A DNA stretch of 64,000 nt from Actinopolymorpha pittospori. Its GTDB lineage: Bacteria > Actinomycetota > Actinomycetes > Propionibacteriales > Actinopolymorphaceae. The stretch is from contig NZ_JADBEM010000001.1 of NCBI RefSeq assembly GCF_014873875.1, positions 5,642,001 to 5,706,000 of the forward strand, read 5' to 3'. The notes under the pieces are model-generated. The model was not told where the DNA came from. It was given only the letters and a program-made list of their open reading frames with translations, and did not search any database. How positions within the stretch are numbered: position 1 is the first letter of the stretch; each line of letters begins with the position of its first letter. This document shows positions 3,363 to 43,121 of this stretch, piece after piece. The translations under genes were made by a program, and so were the position numbers.

Positions 3363-3466
3363 ATTTCGCACCCCGAGCTCAGCTGAGGAGTCCGACCTCG
3401 CGGGCGTTTTCGCAGGTCAGAGGGTGCGCCCGGGAGGATTCGAACCTCCGACCATCGGATTAGAAG
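3363..3466. repeat. Attachment-site copy 1 (left end of island A), contains 3' half of tRNA-Arg
   Basis: Direct repeat of the segment at the intact tRNA-Arg (42987-43090). It opens with ATTTCGCACCCCG, is partly diverged to about 3405, then matches almost exactly from GCAGGTCAGAGGGTGCGCCC through the T-arm to the anticodon-loop triplet (GGATTAGAAG, complement strand). The 5' half of the tRNA is missing, so this is not a tRNA gene. Such a 3'-half duplication is what tRNA-targeting tyrosine integrases leave. A second ATTTCGCACCCCG lies at 3556-3568 on the other side of the core and could be an integrase arm site. Confidence 0.85.
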
Positions 3467-13343: not shown

Positions 13344-13445
13344 ATTTCGCACCCTGAGCTCGGCAAGTCGGTAGGGACCTTCGCGCGTTTGCACAGGTCA
13401 GAGGGTGCGCCCGGGAGGATTCGAACTTCCGACCATCGGATTAGG
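13344..13445. repeat. Attachment-site copy 2 (junction of islands A and B)
   Basis: Matches the segment beside the intact tRNA-Arg: ATTTCGCACCCTG, GAGCTCGGCAAGTCGGTAG, ACCTTCGCGCGTTT and then the tRNA 3' half up to GGATTAG. A C-to-T change in the T-arm (GAACTTCC for GAACCTCC) and other single differences show it has drifted. The 5' half of the tRNA is absent. It is the shared boundary of the two islands. Confidence 0.88.
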
Positions 13446-26374: not shown

Positions 26375-26605
26375 ATGCTGAACCCACCTACTCCGCCTGC
26401 CCTGGACGAGTTCGGGGGATGGCAGACACCCGCCGGCCCTTGGACGGGCGGCGCATGCAATGACGGGCCCTGTGTAGCGGTCGCCTACGGGCCGGACGGT
26501 TGGGTCGCGGTCACTGACACGAAGAACCCGGGAGGCTCCGTGCTGACCTTCACCGCGGACGAGTGGAGCGACTTCCGCAAGGCGATCGTCGGCAACACCA
26601 TCTGA
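26375..26605 (+). CDS. DUF397-type small protein
   Basis: 76 residues from the ATG at 26375, with GAGGAG ahead of it. The C-terminal half (GPDGWVAVTDTKNPGG, LTFTADEWSDFRKAI) is the DUF397 signature, where the final T..EW..F motif is nearly invariant. It is the usual partner of XRE-DUF5753 regulators (BldB/AbaA-like modules in streptomycetes). It directly precedes the MFS gene. Confidence 0.82.
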   Translation: MLNPPTPPALDEFGGWQTPAGPWTGGACNDGPCVAVAYGPDGWVAVTDTKNPGGSVLTFTADEWSDFRKAIVGNTI

Positions 26606-26631
26606 GGAACCTCGATGCCAGGGGAGGGCAC

Positions 26632-27894
26632 GTGGCGACGCCCGAAGCAGTCCAAGATGCGGATCAGACCGTACGGAGGCCTCGCGGCCTTCGGGCACTG
26701 GTTACGGCGACCTACGTGTCCTCCCTCGGCGACGGTGCCCTTGCGGCTGCCGCACCCCTGGCGGCCGCGGCCATTACCCGTGATCCAGCAGCGGTCGCGC
26801 TGGTGTCGGCGGCGGAATACCTCCCCTGGCTGGTGGTGACGCCGTTCGCGGGTGCTCTGGTAGACCGATGGCGCCTGCGGACGGTCCTGGTCGTTGCCGA
26901 CGTCCTCCGCGCTGGAGGGCTGGCACTGCTCGCGATCCTCATCATCGCGGGCGCCGCCTCGATTCCGGTGCTCGCGGCGACCGCGTGCGCGATCGTGGTG
27001 GGTCAGATCTTCGGAGACACGGCAGCGCAGACGATCGTGGTTGACCTCGCCGGCCGCGACAGTGGGGCGCTCAACAAGGCCAACGGGCACATCTCATCGG
27101 CGACCACGGCCGGGAAGTCGCTAGTCGGTCCACCGATTGGAAGTGGGCTGTACGCCGCGGTTCCGTGGCTTCCGTTCGTGCTCGACGCCGTGTCGTTCGC
27201 GGTCAGTGCCGGGTTGGTCGCGAGTCTGCCGAAGCGGCGAGGGCCTACTTCGCGTGCTGGCCGGCCGCGCCTGTTGGCCTCGATCGGTGAAGGAGCTAGG
27301 TTCCTCGTCCAGCACGCCCAACTACGTGTGCTGTGTCTACTGGTAGCAAGTGCCAACCTGGCGAGCTTCATGGCGATGTCGACGTTCGTGCTCTTCGCCA
27401 CCGAGCGGCTGGGTGTCACGACAGCCGGGTACGGCGTGCTGCTGGCAGCCTCCGCCGTAGGCGGCGTTGCCGGGGGCTTCGCGAGCGGGCGCATCGCCCA
27501 GTGGCTCGGTGCCCGCCCGACGATCATCGCCGGGCTCGCACTTCAGGTGGTCGTCTGGCCTGCCATCGGCTGGACCAGCTCGCCGTATATCGCTGGGGCG
27601 CTCCTTGCCGTCGTCGGGCTCTGTGCTGCGGTGACGACCGTCGTGTGCGTCACCGCGCGGCAGCAGCTCACCCCGGCAGCGATGCTCGGTCGGGTGATCT
27701 CGGCGTTCCGAACTGTCAGCGCTGGGACCGCGCCGTTGGGCGCGCTTCTCGGCGGTGGGCTGGCTGCTGTGGTGGACCTCAGGGCCCCGTTCTACGTTGC
27801 GGGCGTTGTCCTAATGGCCGCAGTTCTAGTCTCCTTACCCAGCCTTCGTAGTGTTCAAGCCGACCCTATCTCGACGGAAGGAGTGGGCCAGTAG
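26632..27894 (+). CDS. MFS exporter
   Basis: 420 residues from the GTG at 26632, with GGGGAGGG upstream. About 12 hydrophobic segments are visible (LVTATYVSSLGDGALAAAAP; YLPWLVVTPFAGALVDRWRL; YGVLLAASAVGGVAGGFASG). The GDGAL and D-R-W-R cytoplasmic loops are typical of DHA3/enterobactin-exporter-like MFS proteins. It may export a small molecule or drug. It ends 2 bp before the stop of the convergent kinase-PurZ gene, leaving no room for a separate terminator. Confidence 0.88.
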   Translation: MATPEAVQDADQTVRRPRGLRALVTATYVSSLGDGALAAAAPLAAAAITRDPAAVALVSAAEYLPWLVVTPFAGALVDRWRLRTVLVVADVLRAGGLALLAILIIAGAASIPVLAATACAIVVGQIFGDTAAQTIVVDLAGRDSGALNKANGHISSATTAGKSLVGPPIGSGLYAAVPWLPFVLDAVSFAVSAGLVASLPKRRGPTSRAGRPRLLASIGEGARFLVQHAQLRVLCLLVASANLASFMAMSTFVLFATERLGVTTAGYGVLLAASAVGGVAGGFASGRIAQWLGARPTIIAGLALQVVVWPAIGWTSSPYIAGALLAVVGLCAAVTTVVCVTARQQLTPAAMLGRVISAFRTVSAGTAPLGALLGGGLAAVVDLRAPFYVAGVVLMAAVLVSLPSLRSVQADPISTEGVGQ

Positions 27895-27896
27895 CC

Positions 27897-29561
27897 TCAT
27901 TCCCACGTGCGCCGGTCGATCACGCTACGTGGGTCAAATCGGGTGCTAATCAGCGTCACGGGCGCGCCAGAAACTTGCTCGATTTCTTCGATGAAGTGAG
28001 TCGTGGCCTGATCCAATTGGTTGTAGCGTCGCGCAGCTCGGTTAGTGACGTTGAGGTAATCCGCGAACGTCAATGCGATGTCAGTCGCCCCATTTAGCTC
28101 CGCAGATCGACGTAGTAACTGCCAGTCGAATTCTCCAACTCGGCGAAGTTTATGCGACCGTGATCCGAGTTCGACTTTCAGTAGCTCATCCACATCCACT
28201 CCCGACCGGTCTGCGATATCGGCCCAGTCGAGTTCTTGCGACATGTAACCAGACGTTGAGTCATCTGGACTCTTGACTCGGATGGGATATGACCGAGTCA
28301 CCATAATGACGCGACGTACGCGCGAGGGTGAGATACCGGCCTCGGCGAGACATCCAGCAGTCGTCGTGTCGCGGCCAGTGACGTAAGGATAGCTGCCATG
28401 GAACAGGCTGAGGCCTGTTCCTTGGGTGCCTTCGAGAAGAACGCGATGTTGCGACCGAAAGGCGGCGTCGAGTACGTCCGCAGCCGATCGGAGCCAGGAT
28501 TGTAGCTCTGCCACGTCGCGCGCAAGTCGTACGGGTGGCTCTCCGCCGTGCCTGCCTAAGATCCGGCGCGCAGTGGCCGCTCCGCCGCCCTTGCCTGTCG
28601 AGCCAATTCCCTTTACAAGCACCTCTTCGGCCGCGATGTCCGCAGCCTCAATAATCATAGCCTGAGGATCGATGAATAGTCGCCCAATGCTTACGCCACA
28701 CTCGGCTATCTCCTTGTGGAGCTGTGTAAGGTCCAGCGTCGCACCAGGTCCAATGAGCAGGGTGGCCCTTGAGTTAGCAAGCGTGCCAGAAGGGAGTAGG
28801 CAATGGGTGTACGCTGGCGTGGTAGGGACTTTATGTCCAGCGTTCGGGCCACCCACGCGCATCAGTACTTGATACTCGTCCGCCAAGTAGTAGGCGATGT
28901 TCCCCTTGCCTTCACTGCCGTACTGGGAGCCGATGATGACGTCGACGAGGCGAACGTCCCGGCGAGATAGGAGCCGGAGTGCGGCGGCGGCACGAATCTC
29001 AACATCTGCGGCTGTGCAACGATCTGTGTCGATTGCTACGTCCGCTTCGGCGTGCAGTTGAGCAACCTCCCGCTCTGTTTTGTTCTGTGCTACGGCAGAA
29101 TAGCTAGGGAGTTCGGCGAATCCACTTCCAGTGCCACGTTGTCGATAGCGCCAATCGAGTACCTTCGCAGGAGCGTGAACGTGGATATGAAAGAAGCGTC
29201 CTGGGTAGGCTGAGCGAAGCGCATCGATTTGCGAGCGGTGTCGGACTGAATCTACGATCACTAATTTTGTCGACCGGTTACTGCTAGCGATCAGTCTGCT
29301 CACGCCTTGAGCAACCCACTGTCCGTTAGTCTCCTTGTCGAGTGCGTCGCCGAAATCTTGCATCGCACGTCGTTCGGCGGGAAGCTGGATTCCTCTGTAA
29401 TCGGCGAGCTCCTGCATAAGCTCATGCGTATGAATGTGCATAGCGCCGTAATGCGCGGCAAGCGCTCGACCCAGTGTTGACTTGCCAGCGCCCACGGGGC
29501 CGCTTAGAGTGACTATACGAGTAGATATCGGAAACCCTTGGGTGCTCGACTCATCGGTCAT
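27897..29561 (-). CDS. P-loop nucleotide kinase fused to PurZ-like adenylosuccinate synthetase
   Basis: 554 residues. Residues 15-200 form a P-loop kinase (Walker A GPVGAGKST at 21-29; LVIVDSVRHRSQIDAL), similar to NMP or dephospho-CoA-type kinases. Residues ~205-554 are a compact PurA fold: GSQYGSEGKG at 211-220, RVGGPNAGHKV (catalytic His 243), GSTGKGGGAATARR, LLEGTQGT and HGSYPYVTGRDTT. PurA has Asp in the G-D-EGKG loop; here it is Ser216, which I recall as the diagnostic change in phage PurZ acting on dGMP. At ~350 residues this domain is shorter than bacterial PurA (about 430). Start supported by CAGGAG seven bases upstream. Predicted: (d)GMP + Asp to N6-succinyl-2-amino-(d)AMP, with the kinase phosphorylating the product. 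Base composition is lower in GC than the neighbours, suggesting acquisition. Confidence 0.82.
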   Translation of the reverse strand: MTDESSTQGFPISTRIVTLSGPVGAGKSTLGRALAAHYGAMHIHTHELMQELADYRGIQLPAERRAMQDFGDALDKETNGQWVAQGVSRLIASSNRSTKLVIVDSVRHRSQIDALRSAYPGRFFHIHVHAPAKVLDWRYRQRGTGSGFAELPSYSAVAQNKTEREVAQLHAEADVAIDTDRCTAADVEIRAAAALRLLSRRDVRLVDVIIGSQYGSEGKGNIAYYLADEYQVLMRVGGPNAGHKVPTTPAYTHCLLPSGTLANSRATLLIGPGATLDLTQLHKEIAECGVSIGRLFIDPQAMIIEAADIAAEEVLVKGIGSTGKGGGAATARRILGRHGGEPPVRLARDVAELQSWLRSAADVLDAAFRSQHRVLLEGTQGTGLSLFHGSYPYVTGRDTTTAGCLAEAGISPSRVRRVIMVTRSYPIRVKSPDDSTSGYMSQELDWADIADRSGVDVDELLKVELGSRSHKLRRVGEFDWQLLRRSAELNGATDIALTFADYLNVTNRAARRYNQLDQATTHFIEEIEQVSGAPVTLISTRFDPRSVIDRRTWE

Positions 29562-30044: not shown

Positions 30045-30431
30045 TCAGAACGGCAGCGAAGGCTGGTCGGCGAGCACACTCTTGATGTCGGGTGGGCAGT
30101 AGCCGGAGGACTTCAGGACTTTGCCGTCCTGACGCAAAATGGGGTTGCCGTCTGCGCCCAACTTGCTCATATTGGAGCTGTGGACCTCTCGCAGAGCGGC
30201 ATCCAGATCTATCCCGTAGGTGAGCGCTGCACCATAGGCGACGTAGACGATGTCAGCAAGAGCGTCCGCGATGGCTACCAGGTCTTTGGCCTCGGTGGCG
30301 TCGACGAACTCGCCAACCTCTTCGCACAGCAGCTGCGCTCGCAGACTGGCCTGCTCGACGGGGATGTCGACTGTCGGGCGCCCCCTCCGGGGGAGGTTGA
30401 ACGCGTCGTGGAACCTTCCCACTGCGAGCAT
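30045..30431 (-). CDS. MazG/PRA-PH-type nucleotide pyrophosphohydrolase
   Basis: 128 residues from the ATG at 30431; the frame is open to 30677, but the extra N-terminus is unstructured and overlaps the divergent promoter. All-alpha NTP-PPase core: AVGRFHDAFNLPRRG, LCEEVGEFVDATEAKDL, IADALADIVYVAYGAALTYG and a tail with HSSNMSKLGADGNPI and GKVLKSSGYCPPDI. The paired acidic motifs bind Mg for hydrolysis of (d)NTP to (d)NMP and PPi. Phage Z clusters carry a protein of this fold (MazZ) that makes dGMP from dGTP for PurZ. The same neighbourhood here suggests the same job, but the substrate must be tested. Confidence 0.8.
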   Translation of the reverse strand: MLAVGRFHDAFNLPRRGRPTVDIPVEQASLRAQLLCEEVGEFVDATEAKDLVAIADALADIVYVAYGAALTYGIDLDAALREVHSSNMSKLGADGNPILRQDGKVLKSSGYCPPDIKSVLADQPSLPF

Positions 30432-30606
30432 CGCTTCAGAAACGCTATGAGGTGTCCGGGCGGGTGCCTCGGTCTCGGCGGCGCAGCGAGAGCCACTAGG
30501 AGTGGTCGCAAGGGCGTCGGAGTCGAGTGGGAGTTGCCCTAGCCCCGAGCTGACGGGCATAGACAAGGTCCGACCATCGACCGCGACTTGCCCGCTGGAA
30601 GGAGCC

Positions 30607-30684
30607 ATGCTCGAACCTTGCCACATTGATGGCACTTCGAGCTCCCGCCACGCCAGTACTTTCGGCGAGTCGGTCAAGGTCTAG
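30607..30684 (+). CDS. Possible 25-residue leader peptide ahead of the lyase gene
   Basis: ATG at 30607 is preceded by a strong GGAAGGAGC ribosome site and encodes MLEPCHIDGTSSSRHASTFG plus five residues, ending 20 bp before the lyase start. It could be an upstream regulatory ORF or chance. No homologue recognised. Confidence 0.3.
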   Translation: MLEPCHIDGTSSSRHASTFGESVKV

Positions 30685-30704: not shown

Positions 30705-32009
30705 GTGATCACGCGGTACACGTCACCTGAGATGGCTAGCATCTTTTCCGATGAGAATCGGCTCAGACTGTGGTGGCTTGTTGAGTTGGCGGTCATCGAT
30801 GCGTATGCGGTCGAAGGTATCGTCCCAAGCGAGGCTGCGGCTGCGGTTCGGGCGGCACTCCTTCCTTCCGTGGAGGACGTTCTTGCTCGTGAGCAGATCT
30901 TGCAGCATGATCTGGTCGCCTTCCTATCGGCCTGGACAAGACCGATGCCGCCAGAGATGTCGAGGTGGGTGCACCGCGGTCTTACCAGTTCAGATGTCGT
31001 TGATACTGCGCTGGCGCTGCAGTTGACCGAGGCGAGCGATCTCATAGAGGCACGGACAGATCGGCTGGTGGAAGTGCTTCGCGCGCACGCGCTTGAGCAC
31101 CGGGAGACCGTGCGTGCGGGGCGAACGCATGGTCAGGTCGCCACGCTTGACGTGTGGGGTCATCGCGTGGCCGACTTCGCGTTGGCTGCGGTGCGGGCAC
31201 GGAGACGCTTGCGTGCAGCCCGCCACGAAGTGGCAGTCGCAAAGCTTTCCGGGCCGACTGGGTCCTACCTACATGTGCCAGCATCTGTGGAGATCCGGGC
31301 GGCGGGGTCACTCGGCCTCCGCGCAGTGGACGTCGCGACCCAGGTTGTTCTGCGCGATCGGCTCGCGAACTGGATGTGTGCCCTAGCGCTGCTCGCGTCG
31401 GTCTGCGAGGCGGTCGCCCTTGAGGTTCGTCTCGGGCAGCACGGTGGAGTCAGAGAGATAGCTGAGCCTGCTGCGCGTACTCAGGTCGGGTCGTCCTCGA
31501 TGCCGCACAAACGAAACCCCGTCGCGTCCGAGCGGATCTGCGGACTTGCGAGGGTAGTACGCAGCTACGTTGTCCCAGTAATGGAAGGCCTCGCCCTGTG
31601 GCATGAACGGGACCTCAGCCACTCTTCGGTAGAGCGAATCTGCGTGCCAGATGCCGCAGCCCTAACAGAGCAGATAGTGGTAGCAACTGCGCACGTAATT
31701 GACGGCCTACACGTTGACGCGTCCCAAATGGCATCGACGGCCGCCGCTGCGGGAGCACAGGTTGCCTCGCACTCGGCGCTGATCGCACTGACGGACGCAG
31801 GGATGGGCTGGGAGGAGGCGTGGAAGGCTGTGAAACTTGCTTCCGATACAGCCTGCGCCAGTGGCGAGGATCCGAGCGTGGAGGACCTCGTAGCAGCTCT
31901 CCGGGTGGCCGCTGCAGAAGGCACCCTCGCAGCCGACCTATCAGCCCTGACGCCGGATCCCCAAACTGACGGCCTCCGAAGGCTGTTCGCTCGGCTTGAG
32001 GATCTGTGA
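30705..32009 (+). CDS. Adenylosuccinate lyase paralogue (PurB-like)
   Basis: 434 residues from a GTG at 30705 (GGAGGG upstream). It matches Bacillus-type PurB along its length: YTSPEMASIFSDENRLRLWW, HDLVAFLSAW, HRGLTSSDVVDTAL, GRTHG (catalytic His 142), the superfamily signature GSSSMPHKRNP at 262-272, and LALWHERDLSHSSVER. PurB cleaves succinyl-AMP or SAICAR to fumarate and the amine. Divergent from the MazG gene and separated from the PurZ-like gene only by it, it is the obvious next step, releasing 2-amino-(d)AMP from the succinyl intermediate. Known phage Z pathways borrow the host PurB; a dedicated copy is notable. Confidence 0.88.
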   Translation: MITRYTSPEMASIFSDENRLRLWWLVELAVIDAYAVEGIVPSEAAAAVRAALLPSVEDVLAREQILQHDLVAFLSAWTRPMPPEMSRWVHRGLTSSDVVDTALALQLTEASDLIEARTDRLVEVLRAHALEHRETVRAGRTHGQVATLDVWGHRVADFALAAVRARRRLRAARHEVAVAKLSGPTGSYLHVPASVEIRAAGSLGLRAVDVATQVVLRDRLANWMCALALLASVCEAVALEVRLGQHGGVREIAEPAARTQVGSSSMPHKRNPVASERICGLARVVRSYVVPVMEGLALWHERDLSHSSVERICVPDAAALTEQIVVATAHVIDGLHVDASQMASTAAAAGAQVASHSALIALTDAGMGWEEAWKAVKLASDTACASGEDPSVEDLVAALRVAAAEGTLAADLSALTPDPQTDGLRRLFARLEDL

Positions 32010-32072: not shown

Positions 32073-32747
32073 GTGGACATCGAGGAACTTGTCGCCAAAT
32101 ACCCTATTCTGTTTCACATGGCGGAAGACGATACCTGGCCCTCGATCGCGCGCCATGGGTTGCTCAGCACCAATGCAATCGTGGAGCTTTACCGCCTCGA
32201 CCATGAGCAGGCTGATGCAATCGTTGGACAGGTAAGGCGTCGCAGCGTTACCCTGAGTGATCCAAAGCTTGGTTCGATGACGATCCGTGATCAGTTACCG
32301 CTGAAGTTTCTAGACGGCTGCCTGACGGCGTCGACGACACCGCGTCAGTTCCTGGACGCTCTTAACGGACGAGTATTTTTTTGGGTGACCGAGGCCCGGC
32401 TATTGCGATTGCTACGGGCTACGCAATACCGGAAGAAGCGCCAGACGATCTTGCGGGTGGACACCGCGCGACTCATGGAACGCCACGAGGGTCGTGTCCA
32501 GCTGGCGCCGTACAACACCGGCAGCATGCACGTACCTACGGCGCCGAAGCGAGGTGCTGATGTCTTCGTGGACGTCGCCTCCTATCCGTATGGCGAGTGG
32601 CGCAGGAGGCGCGGCAAGGCAGGCGACGCCCTCGTCGAGCTGACAGTTCCCCACTCCGTCCCCGACATCGTGGATTGCTTACTCTCGGTCGAGTCATGGT
32701 CGGGTGGCGTGTGCGACAGGAGGATTTGGGGCGACGCGGCACGGTGA
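32073..32747 (+). CDS. DUF7002-type protein, possible ADP-ribosyltransferase-like fold
   Basis: 224 residues from a GTG 63 bp after the lyase stop, same strand. The N-terminus (ILFHMAEDDTWPSIARHGLL plus ST) resembles the H..E...SI..HGLLS opening of DUF7002 and of DarT/RNA-2'-phosphotransferase-like proteins that bind NAD or nucleotides. A later RVFFWVTEARLLRLLRATQY segment is typical of DUF7002. No membrane segment. Its place at the end of the nucleotide cassette makes it the candidate effector or nucleotide-using enzyme. The family name is from recall and the fold suggestion is inference. Confidence 0.6.
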   Translation: MDIEELVAKYPILFHMAEDDTWPSIARHGLLSTNAIVELYRLDHEQADAIVGQVRRRSVTLSDPKLGSMTIRDQLPLKFLDGCLTASTTPRQFLDALNGRVFFWVTEARLLRLLRATQYRKKRQTILRVDTARLMERHEGRVQLAPYNTGSMHVPTAPKRGADVFVDVASYPYGEWRRRRGKAGDALVELTVPHSVPDIVDCLLSVESWSGGVCDRRIWGDAAR

Positions 32748-37285: not shown

Positions 37286-37420
37286 CCCACAGACCGGTGG
37301 GCCCCTGGGCTCCCCCCACCCGGGGGTCCACCGCTTAACCGGGTGGCGTCCGCGGCTCCCTGCCCCCAGTCGTGGGCGCCACCCACCCTCTCGTACCGGC
37401 TCGCGAAAGGAGATACGTCG

Positions 37421-39541
37421 ATGGCAGCACCGGCAGCCTCCACCGTTCGCCGGCAACCTGGCGCTCGTGGGGCCAAGGAAGTGTCGCCCGGACAGTCCTC
37501 TCGTTCACCTGGATCGGCCCAGGGCGCGCGTGATCAGGTAACTCGAAGCGTCAGCTGGTGGCGGGAGGTGCGGTCCTCTCTGTGGCGGCTGCGCCGTCCG
37601 GCTCTCCCGCACCTGGTCGCGCTCGCCCTCCTGGCGCTGGCCTTCATGGTGGCGCTGGTCAACCTGAGGACTAACGGGATCTACCGCGTGGGGATCACCG
37701 CGGTGGTCGCGACAGTCTCCACGGTGACGCTGCTCGCCGGCTGGGCTCTGGCTCGCCGCCAGGTTCCGGCGCGTTGGCGTCTCCACATATATGTGTCGGC
37801 CGTCTTCGCCGGCGGATGGCTGGTCGCTGCCAGCGTCTGGCTGACCGCGGTCACGGTCAGCATCCTCCTGACCGGCGAGTACGTCCTGGCCGCGCGCTGG
37901 TGGCGGCGTACGCGGATCACGACCTACGGCACGATCAAGGACATTCCCGGTGTGTTGCCTGATTCGAGGCCGGCAGACAACGTCGTTCGGGATTGGGACA
38001 GCTTCGTCGCCGGCCAGCGCGGAGCACTTCCGGGTGCACGGCTGACCAAACCCGAACCGCTCGAGCACGGACGGCAGTACACGATCGAGTTCGTCCGCGG
38101 CCAGCAGTCGATCGGGGACGCGATCAACACGATGGTGCGGATCGCGGGTGGGCTGGGTCTGCAGACCAGCCGGCTGGTGGTCGAGGACCATCCCTCCCAG
38201 GTCCCGAACCTCGGTCTCCTGAAGGTCATGACCAAGACGCCGGTCGAGGACAATCCGCCGTACCTCGGTCCGACCTGGAGGGACGGCGCGGTGTCGATCG
38301 GTCCGTACGCCGACTGGATGGGTGAGGCGGGCTGGCGGCTGTGGACGCCGGGGGAGAGCGGCGACAACGACGGCTCCGCCTGGTCGGGAGCGTTGATCGG
38401 CGCGCCCGGTTCGGGGAAGTCCCGGACGCTGGAGTCGATCATCATCGGAGCCATGTGGTCCGGCCTGGTGGTGAACTGGTTCATCGACCCGCAAGGCGGT
38501 GCGTCGAGCCCGGCGCTGAAGAAGTACGCGGACTGGTATGTCGACCTGTCCGGCGCGGAGGACATGCTGTGCGCGGTGGAGCGGGTCGCAGCCTGGCGCG
38601 AGTTCGAGAACGCCACGGAAGGCTGGACCGGTTTCACCCCTCGCCCGGATCGGCCACTGCTCGTCGTCTCCATCGACGAGGCCCACGAGGTGCTCAAGGG
38701 GGTCTGGGGCAAGCGGCTGTCGTCCCTGGCCAGGAAGGTTCGCAAGCTGGGGATCTGTTTCATCGTTGTCTCGCAGTACCCCGGCATCGAGACGTTCGGT
38801 GGGGACGAGGCGCTGCGGTTGTCGATCATGGCGGGGAACGGCATCTGCTTCCGTACGGCTTCCAACTACGCCGGCTCGCTGATGGCCGGGCTGGAGATGG
38901 ACCCGAAGCGGCTGCCCGATGTGAAGGGCTACGGCTTCACCATCCGCGTCGAGGGGTTCTCCCGGCTCGCGCCGTTCCGCAACCGCCTGTGCAAGGACCC
39001 GTTCGGCCAGATGGGGGTTGCTAGCCCTCGTGCTGCTCGGTTGGACCCCGGATCGAGCAACGCGGCTGGACCGGCCTACGCCGAGCGCGCGGCGCGCGCG
39101 GAAGCCTCCGTGCAGGCATCGAAGGACAAGCTCGAAGCGGTGCGGAACGGCACACTCAGTGCGTCCGAGGTGATCGGCAGCCATGTGTCGCCGGCGCGAG
39201 GCAGCGGCCTCAACGCTGTGGCCGCGGAAACCCTTCTGCAGGCGATGGGCCTGCCCTCGGCTCCCGGCGAAGGTATGAACTCGCGCGCCGGACCCGCTCC
39301 TGGTCCTGCCGGCGGTCTCGAAGGCGTCACGTCTTGCGCCGCGACTTCCGAGGTGGACGGCGACGGCACCAAGGGCCACCTCGCCGTTCTCGAGGCTCTC
39401 AGCGCCGGGGCGGCGAGCCCGGCGGACATCGTGTCGGTAACCGGGTACTCCGCCTCCCGCGTTCACCAGATCCTGGCGGACCTGACTAGGGACGGCCGTG
39501 TCGAACGGACTGGGCACGGGCGCTATCGCGCAATGGCCTGA
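37421..39541 (+). CDS. FtsK/SpoIIIE-type DNA translocase (AICE TraB-like)
   Basis: 706 residues from the ATG after AAAGGAGATACGTCG. The N-terminus holds two or three membrane segments (LPHLVALALLALAFMVALVN; GITAVVATVSTVTLLAGWAL; FAGGWLVAASVWLTAVTVSI). The motor domain has Walker A IGAPGSGKSRT (about residue 327) and Walker B LLVVSIDEAHEV (about 412), then VVSQYPGIETFGGDEALRLS. The last ~60 residues are a winged-helix-like module (ILADLTRDGRVERTGHGRYR), as in the gamma domain that recognises clt-like sequences. In AICEs this single protein moves double-stranded DNA between mycelia. It is the core transfer gene here. Confidence 0.88.
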   Translation: MAAPAASTVRRQPGARGAKEVSPGQSSRSPGSAQGARDQVTRSVSWWREVRSSLWRLRRPALPHLVALALLALAFMVALVNLRTNGIYRVGITAVVATVSTVTLLAGWALARRQVPARWRLHIYVSAVFAGGWLVAASVWLTAVTVSILLTGEYVLAARWWRRTRITTYGTIKDIPGVLPDSRPADNVVRDWDSFVAGQRGALPGARLTKPEPLEHGRQYTIEFVRGQQSIGDAINTMVRIAGGLGLQTSRLVVEDHPSQVPNLGLLKVMTKTPVEDNPPYLGPTWRDGAVSIGPYADWMGEAGWRLWTPGESGDNDGSAWSGALIGAPGSGKSRTLESIIIGAMWSGLVVNWFIDPQGGASSPALKKYADWYVDLSGAEDMLCAVERVAAWREFENATEGWTGFTPRPDRPLLVVSIDEAHEVLKGVWGKRLSSLARKVRKLGICFIVVSQYPGIETFGGDEALRLSIMAGNGICFRTASNYAGSLMAGLEMDPKRLPDVKGYGFTIRVEGFSRLAPFRNRLCKDPFGQMGVASPRAARLDPGSSNAAGPAYAERAARAEASVQASKDKLEAVRNGTLSASEVIGSHVSPARGSGLNAVAAETLLQAMGLPSAPGEGMNSRAGPAPGPAGGLEGVTSCAATSEVDGDGTKGHLAVLEALSAGAASPADIVSVTGYSASRVHQILADLTRDGRVERTGHGRYRAMA

Positions 39542-42986: not shown

Positions 42987-43090
42987 AATTCGCACCCTGA
43001 GCTCGGCAAGTCGGTAGAGACCTTCGCGCGTTTTCGCAGGTCAGAGGGTGCGCCCGGGAGGATTCGAACCTCCGACCATCGGATTAGAAG
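42987..43090. repeat. Attachment-site copy 3 (at the intact tRNA-Arg)
   Basis: Starts AATTCGCACCCTGAGCTCGG, runs through CCTTCGCGCGTTTTCGCAGG and the tRNA 3' half to GGATTAGAAG, where identity with copies 1 and 2 stops, at the anticodon. This places the crossover within the anticodon-to-3'-end half of the gene. Confidence 0.88.
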
Positions 43091-43121
43091 TCCGGTGCTC
43101 TATCCACTGAGCTACGGGCGC
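43049..43121 (-). tRNA. tRNA-Arg (anticodon UCU)
   Basis: 73 nt, complete cloverleaf on the reverse strand: acceptor GCGCCCG with CGGGCGC, D-arm GCTC...GAGC, anticodon loop CTTCTAA (anticodon TCT), T-arm GGAGG-TTCGAATC-CTCC and discriminator A. CCA is not encoded. One anticodon-stem pair (C-A) is unpaired. It is the integration site of both islands; the elements replace sequence 3' of the gene and keep it functional. Confidence 0.92.

Follow-up and report, generated by a model that had tools for sequence, protein, structure and literature searches.

The window analysed here is a 64,000-nucleotide stretch of the genome of Actinopolymorpha pittospori (contig NZ_JADBEM010000001.1, positions 5,642,001 to 5,706,000). 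Within it, an open reading frame at 27897..29561 (-) encodes a 554-aa protein in which a dNMP-kinase-like N-terminal domain (residues ~12-198) is fused to a synthetase domain of the PurA/PurZ type (residues ~203-554). The kinase domain contains a P-loop, GPVGAGKST, at residues 21-29 (29475..29501, (-)). An AlphaFold2 model of the fusion gave a pLDDT of 91.2. When residues 203-554 of the model were compared with solved structures, the best match was P. horikoshii PurA (PDB 5k7x; Z 42.5, 38% identity over 324 residues), followed by PurZ0 (7vf6, Z 38.6) and phiVC8 PurZ (6fm1, Z 38.0), in agreement with the PurA-like domain assigned in a preliminary description of this DNA. Residues 12-198 matched an adenylate-kinase-related (AdkA-like) protein (Z 19.0) and then other NMP kinases. 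By sequence, the kinase domain resembled phrog_139, a family of phage deoxynucleoside monophosphate kinases (E 8e-7). A weak resemblance to the N-terminal region of anti-phage dCTP deaminases scored far under the cut-off (NF041025, E 1.5e-6).

On one side of the fusion gene, and convergent with it, is a gene for an MFS transporter (26563..27894, (+)), which is not conserved beside the relatives described below and probably lies outside the system. On the other side are genes for a PRA-PH/MazG-superfamily pyrophosphohydrolase (30045..30677, (-), with a true start perhaps internal), a PurB-like adenylosuccinate lyase (30705..32009, (+)), which scored above the TIGR00928 cut-off (356 vs 326 bits), and a DUF7002 protein with a predicted DarT-like ADP-ribosyltransferase fold (32073..32747, (+)). 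A possible function of the PRA-PH enzyme is to supply (d)GMP from (d)GTP. It belongs to the same superfamily as S-2L MazZ; the match was weak (hhalign probability 18%) and its closest solved structure was DR2231, and we rejected its identification as MazZ proper.

Farther along, a gene at 37343..39541 (+) encodes a TraB/FtsK-like conjugative transfer protein, identified by a weak model match (44 bits vs a cut-off of 800), and a tRNA-Arg(tct) gene lies at 43047..43121 (-). The 3' 40 bp of this tRNA gene (43047-43086) are repeated on the same strand at 3423-3462 and 13404-13443; the copy at 13404..13443 (-) has one mismatch and is a possible attachment-site remnant. A fourth 40-bp copy was found ~70 kb beyond the first, outside the window, and the repeats mark an integration hotspot, possibly with stacked elements. 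No PF00589 match that would indicate a tyrosine integrase was found between the repeats. Because the repeats flank the locus and a TraB-like gene is present, we concluded that the locus is probably cargo of a surrounding integrated mobile element, perhaps a decayed one.

Active-site residues and family membership of the synthetase domain

The preliminary description had placed an Asp-to-Ser change at the catalytic position of the loop GSQYGSEGKG (residues 211-220; 28902..28931, (-)), which replaces the Asp13-bearing loop of PurA. In a MAFFT alignment with E. coli PurA, S-2L and phiVC8 PurZ, three PurZ0 proteins, and one paralogue from the same genome, Ser216 (codon AGT, 28914-28916, (-)) fell in the column occupied by Asp13 of E. 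coli PurA (Asp14 with Met counted) and Ser23 of S-2L PurZ, which bears out that placement; phmmer alignments were also made for the 554-aa protein. Ser occupies this column in phage PurZ (S-2L, phiVC8) and in PurZ0 (Zanella, Wawa, Galactica). Asp was found there in E. coli PurA, P. horikoshii PurA, a deazapurine-cluster PurA, the canonical PurA of the genome (loop GAQWGDEGKG), and a 335-aa PurA paralogue (loop DALWGDSGKG). As a change from AGT to GAT or GAC requires at least two base changes, a single sequencing error does not explain Ser216. The His of the NAGH motif was also correctly described as kept; its codon (His243, CAT, 28833..28835, (-); the equivalent of PurA His41) lies slightly outside the interval 28900-28945 first assigned to the feature. 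The 335-aa protein is the third PurA paralogue of the genome (L006:9556-10563 (-), ~G000:C1:8499555-8500562), and along with the retained Asp it has the sequence NAGAS, Ala replacing the NAGH His.

Ser216 was invariant across 43 aligned fusion proteins, the others being 46-63% identical to that of the window, as were G26 and K27 of the P-loop. The pattern used for the locus search itself contained Ser (Q[WYF]GSEGKG adjoining VGGPNAGH); nine loci outside this pattern, found via VGGPNAGH alone (L031, L040, L075, and six with GE[YF]GSEGKG), still had Ser. Every inspected locus with the loop intact had Ser at this position, one locus (L073) being truncated at the loop.

Published comparisons found Ser at the Asp13 position in 147 of 147 (100%) phage PurZ proteins, Asp in 99% of compared PurA proteins, and Ser or Gly in four archaeal PurZ-like sequences (PMC12884076). 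Another study put the Ser hydroxyl and the dGMP 2-amino nitrogen 3.7 A apart, a distance exceeding that of the hydrogen bond originally postulated, and a contribution to guanine preference is possible (PMC8342488). The preliminary description had taken the Ser to be what allows the 2-amino group to be accommodated. We retain the residue as a strong marker of the PurZ type in sequence comparisons, and we do not retain it as the cause, which these two studies do not establish. Ser216 fits the prediction that the substrate is a 2-amino purine (GMP/dGMP) rather than IMP, and we regard a PurZ-type substrate choice for the fusion as quite probable. Where S-2L PurZ has Gln308, all fusions have Asp, the same as in PurA, which would make GTP a likelier donor than ATP. 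At the position of PurA Arg303 the window fusion has Lys and its relatives have a mixture of Arg, Lys, and Asn, and so a preference for the 2'-deoxy form is not readable from the sequence. The Arg303 and Thr129 positions were discarded as further substrate markers, being mixed or common to Asp-type paralogues.

The fusion passed the cut-off of the superfamily model PF00709 (169 vs 27) and missed those of the PurZ model NF038379 (195.2 vs 300 bits), the archaeal PurA model PRK04293 (272.8 vs 368 bits), and the PurA model TIGR00184 (183.3 vs 395.6 bits), the archaeal PurA model being the top-scoring NCBIfam model, above PurZ. A tree of 32 sequences separated the fusions, as a single clade (100/99), from PurA (100/100), phage PurZ, and PurZ0. 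The fusions were grouped only weakly with the phage Ser-bearing lineages (79/78), and one actinobacterial Ser-bearing protein fell outside that grouping. Judged from these comparisons, the fusion is PurZ-type by its catalytic residue and is not within the described phage PurZ family. Phage membership of the window fusion was also rejected, since no phage record spanned 80% of it and the best phage matches were at most ~36% identical.

The closest overall fold and the top NCBIfam model would also suit a divergent archaeal-type PurA that still acts on IMP, a spare purine enzyme in which Ser216 is tolerated. We consider this unlikely. Ser is invariant in the clade, compared with Asp in 99% of PurA (PMC12884076), the genome already has a canonical PurA, and a fixed kinase fusion with defence-like partners would be odd in a housekeeping copy.

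Relatives and conserved neighbours

Scanning of 84,980 genomes, taken by species, yielded 414 relatives, which occur in bacteria and archaea and are patchy across phyla. The best 79 of the 414 were nearly all full-length fusions and came from Actinobacteria, Acidobacteria, Planctomycetes, Verrucomicrobia, Chloroflexi, Proteobacteria, Bacteroidota, and archaea. Within the phylum of the window, the full fusion (E <= 1e-60) was present in 1 of 396 sampled genomes, the source genome itself, and among 58 related genomes it was present in two, the source genome counted. A copy 73% identical to the window protein belongs to the same order (L221), and L021 and L221 exemplify loci whose three-gene operon is intact. 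Where there was enough flank to inspect, DUF7002 was the next gene downstream of the fusion in 76 of 83 loci, and directly upstream, in 54 of 82, was a gene for a protein of ~440-500 aa that joins an IrrE/CapP-like protease domain to a macrodomain at its C terminus (PDB profile matches to IrrE, 1e-12; CapP, 5e-11; macrodomain, 4e-47). The preliminary description was right about the residue, and its single-residue view omitted the conserved kinase fusion and the ADP-ribosyltransferase and macrodomain partners. The window differs from its relatives in gene order: its (+) strand carries DUF7002 after the PurB-like gene, and its (-) strand carries the genes for the fusion and PRA-PH. It also has no IrrE-macrodomain homologue, and neither does the rest of the genome, where only a weak M78 match was found. 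From the missing gene and the rearranged order we concluded that the window copy may be incomplete.

The AlphaFold2 model of DUF7002 (pLDDT 96.1) matched DarT1 best (Foldseek E 6.6e-5; Z 10.6, rmsd 3.2, 160 residues aligned), then DarTG (Z 9.6), and then tRNA 2'-phosphotransferases. DarT1 was also the sole PDB match in sequence-profile searches, with an E value of 0.085 that is not significant alone. On the strength of the predicted fold we place DUF7002 with the DarT ADP-ribosyltransferases. Its invariant residues include His15, Arg55, and Glu189, which presumably would suit an active ADP-ribosyltransferase. Of the 396 genomes of the phylum, up to 12 others had DUF7002 but no fusion, and such lone genes (L107-L112, L114, L115) had varied surroundings.

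Other genes were added to the module in particular groups. In actinobacteria, PRA-PH homologues were near the fusion in nine other loci and PurB-like homologues in three (L018, L021, L024). Alphaproteobacterial plasmid loci had an HD nucleotidase and a 455-aa protein; the latter (L010:13099-14457 and homologues) is conserved, is without a Pfam match, and adjoins the module. We rejected the identification of the rhizobial HD protein as DatZ, as it was far closer to dNMP phosphatases (phrog_318, E 2e-62) than to the dATP triphosphohydrolase phrog (E 4e-7). No homologue of it was detected in the window by tblastn, and no HD domain was detected by Pfam among the proteins of the window's cluster. 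One archaeal locus (L060:8001-13375) contains a convergent pair of kinase-PurZ fusions; DUF7002 follows one of them, and an IrrE-macrodomain gene precedes the other. A Sinorhizobium medicae plasmid (L014:7287-11928) encodes a stand-alone Ser-bearing synthetase (GGQFGSEGKG) adjoining an HD nucleotidase, a dCTP-deaminase-like protein, and a BilD-like ThiF protein. A Rhizobium leguminosarum plasmid (L015:7360-15708) has FolE, QueC, QueE, nitrile hydratase, a PurA-like protein with Asp kept, and PurB, a cluster resembling one for a 7-deazapurine nucleoside.

With PurB-like and MFS genes close by in the window, and a PurA-PurB pair beside que-type genes on a rhizobial plasmid, the PurZ-like enzyme, PurB, and the transporter might be thought to make and export a purine analogue, as in 7-deazapurine clusters with PurA and PurB. 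Such a nucleoside antibiotic cluster is, however, very unlikely, as relatives show no conservation of the MFS gene or of other biosynthetic genes, the PurA of the deazapurine cluster has Asp, and the conserved partners are instead an ADP-ribosyltransferase and a protease-macrodomain protein. We rejected this reading because the conserved neighbours do not match it.

Defence genes are plentiful around the relatives, and in most of these the fusion gene and its two partners lie on mobile DNA or amid such genes. At E <= 1e-15, 130 sampled neighbour proteins of the fusion matched 136 PADLOC models and 121 proteins beside canonical purA matched two; as the counts are redundant across models and the control consisted of core purA loci of one class only, we take the enrichment to be strong and not exact. 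Annotated rhizobial plasmids carry the operon beside AbiE, SIR2, AbiJ, RelA/SpoT, and UvrD/AAA genes. Type I restriction genes were present in 11 of 78 fusion loci vs none of 20 controls, a difference that is suggestive only. We consider a defence role for the conserved module probable, a little less so than the PurZ-type substrate choice.

About seven distinct IMG/VR contigs also encode the kinase-PurZ fusion, and on the three whose neighbours were identified (L140, L143, L145) it lies beside genes for DNA polymerase, DnaB, or primase. A Z-DNA enzyme would be expected in such surroundings, which favours the PurZ-type interpretation. DUF7002 was absent from the seven IMG/VR fusion records tested. 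The viral contigs L140, L142, L143, L145, L146, L149, and L158 are candidate Z-genome phages with a third PurZ type. Because the phage contigs, like Z-genome phages, have the enzyme next to replication genes, and because the kinase fusion, PRA-PH, PurB, and the rhizobial HD nucleotidase would suit dZTP supply, the module might instead make dZTP for the DNA of the host or element, the DarT-like enzyme attacking unmodified or invading DNA in a self/non-self system. Cellular Z-DNA of this kind seems improbable to us, as a gene for a Z-specific polymerase is absent from the conserved bacterial neighbours and the HD protein is far nearer to dNMP phosphatases than to DatZ. In a tree, fusions from phages are interleaved with those from bacteria, and tRNA-derived repeats lie on either side of the locus, as might be left by a Z-genome phage whose domesticated relic has lost its function. 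The three-gene association extends across many phyla with ORFs intact, however, and no phage replication genes are conserved at the bacterial loci, and we regard a functionless relic as highly improbable.

A proposed nucleotide-based module and its likeness to known systems

Kongming makes a base-modified nucleotide, dITP, with the help of a dNMP kinase, and this nucleotide signals infection (PMC12948488). Because of this analogy we take phage defence to be the likeliest role of the module, and the explanation that we prefer as a whole, a PurZ-type kinase fusion within a nucleotide-based phage-defence module, has in our judgement slightly the better side of an even chance. The synthetase domain would condense aspartate with GMP or dGMP to give N6-succino-2-amino-(d)AMP, and the fused kinase would phosphorylate the substrate, or the product after the lyase, towards the di- or triphosphate of 2-aminoadenine (Z). 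In actinobacteria, PRA-PH may supply the (d)GMP and the PurB-like lyase may complete the base. We propose that the non-canonical purine nucleotide would be made as (d)GMP rises during infection and would release or direct the DarT-like ADP-ribosyltransferase, and that the IrrE/CapP-like protease-macrodomain protein would serve as the restraint and sensor of that enzyme. This particular wiring of signal and effector is doubtful, and the link from nucleotide to ADP-ribosyltransferase is a guess. Put more broadly, that a 2-amino-purine (Z or succino-Z) nucleotide from the kinase-PurZ protein controls, or is a substrate of, a DarT-like enzyme restrained by the protease-macrodomain protein, together forming a widespread prokaryotic immune module that is new to description, is possible and falls somewhat short of an even chance.

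In the publications consulted, synthesis of 2-aminoadenine is treated as a phage trait, plus a few archaeal PurZ-like sequences. Some 400 cellular homologues with the PurZ-type Ser, a kinase fusion, and an ADP-ribosyltransferase/macrodomain pair constitute a candidate new defence module, and we found nothing relevant on DUF7002, on a PurZ-ADP-ribosyltransferase pairing, or on an anti-phage adenylosuccinate synthetase in a literature search whose scope excluded subscription journals and preprints. The homologues suggest that synthesis of Z-type nucleotides extends to bacteria, probably as part of their conflict with phages, and bacteria may make or sense such nucleotides against them. If so, Z-nucleotide chemistry would be used by cells too, beyond phages, and the phage Z pathway might have a cellular source or sink in this clade.

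The module resembles several known systems in part. With phage PurZ and PurZ0 (S-2L, phiVC8, and Arthrobacter and Microbacterium phages) the window fusion shares the synthetase fold (Z 35-39), the Ser, and the NAGH His. It differs from them in having a kinase domain, in forming its own clade below the PurZ model cut-off, in its bacterial setting with an ADP-ribosyltransferase, and, relative to S-2L PurZ, in having the PurA-type Asp in place of Gln308. Archaeal-type PurA (P. horikoshii, 5k7x) is closest in overall structure to the synthetase domain, but the fusion has Ser for the catalytic Asp, plus the kinase domain. Neither DUF7002 nor the synthetase is represented by a PADLOC model, and among the PADLOC models the module proteins did not match DarT and matched DarG only weakly. 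The likeness to DarTG lies in the predicted DarT-like fold of DUF7002 and, among relatives, in the macrodomain of the upstream protein, as in DarG; unlike DarTG, the module has its macrodomain fused to an IrrE/CapP-like protease and adds the kinase-PurZ gene, and the IrrE-macrodomain protein, the would-be antitoxin partner encoded upstream in most relatives, has no counterpart in the window or elsewhere in the genome. Pfam searches detected no KomA deaminase, HAM1-like KomB, or SIR2-like KomC among the cluster genes of the window. With Kongming and the anti-phage dCTP deaminases the module shares the pairing of a nucleotide-modifying enzyme with dNMP kinase activity in defence, whereas it differs from them in using PurZ-type amination, not deamination, and in having the kinase fused in.
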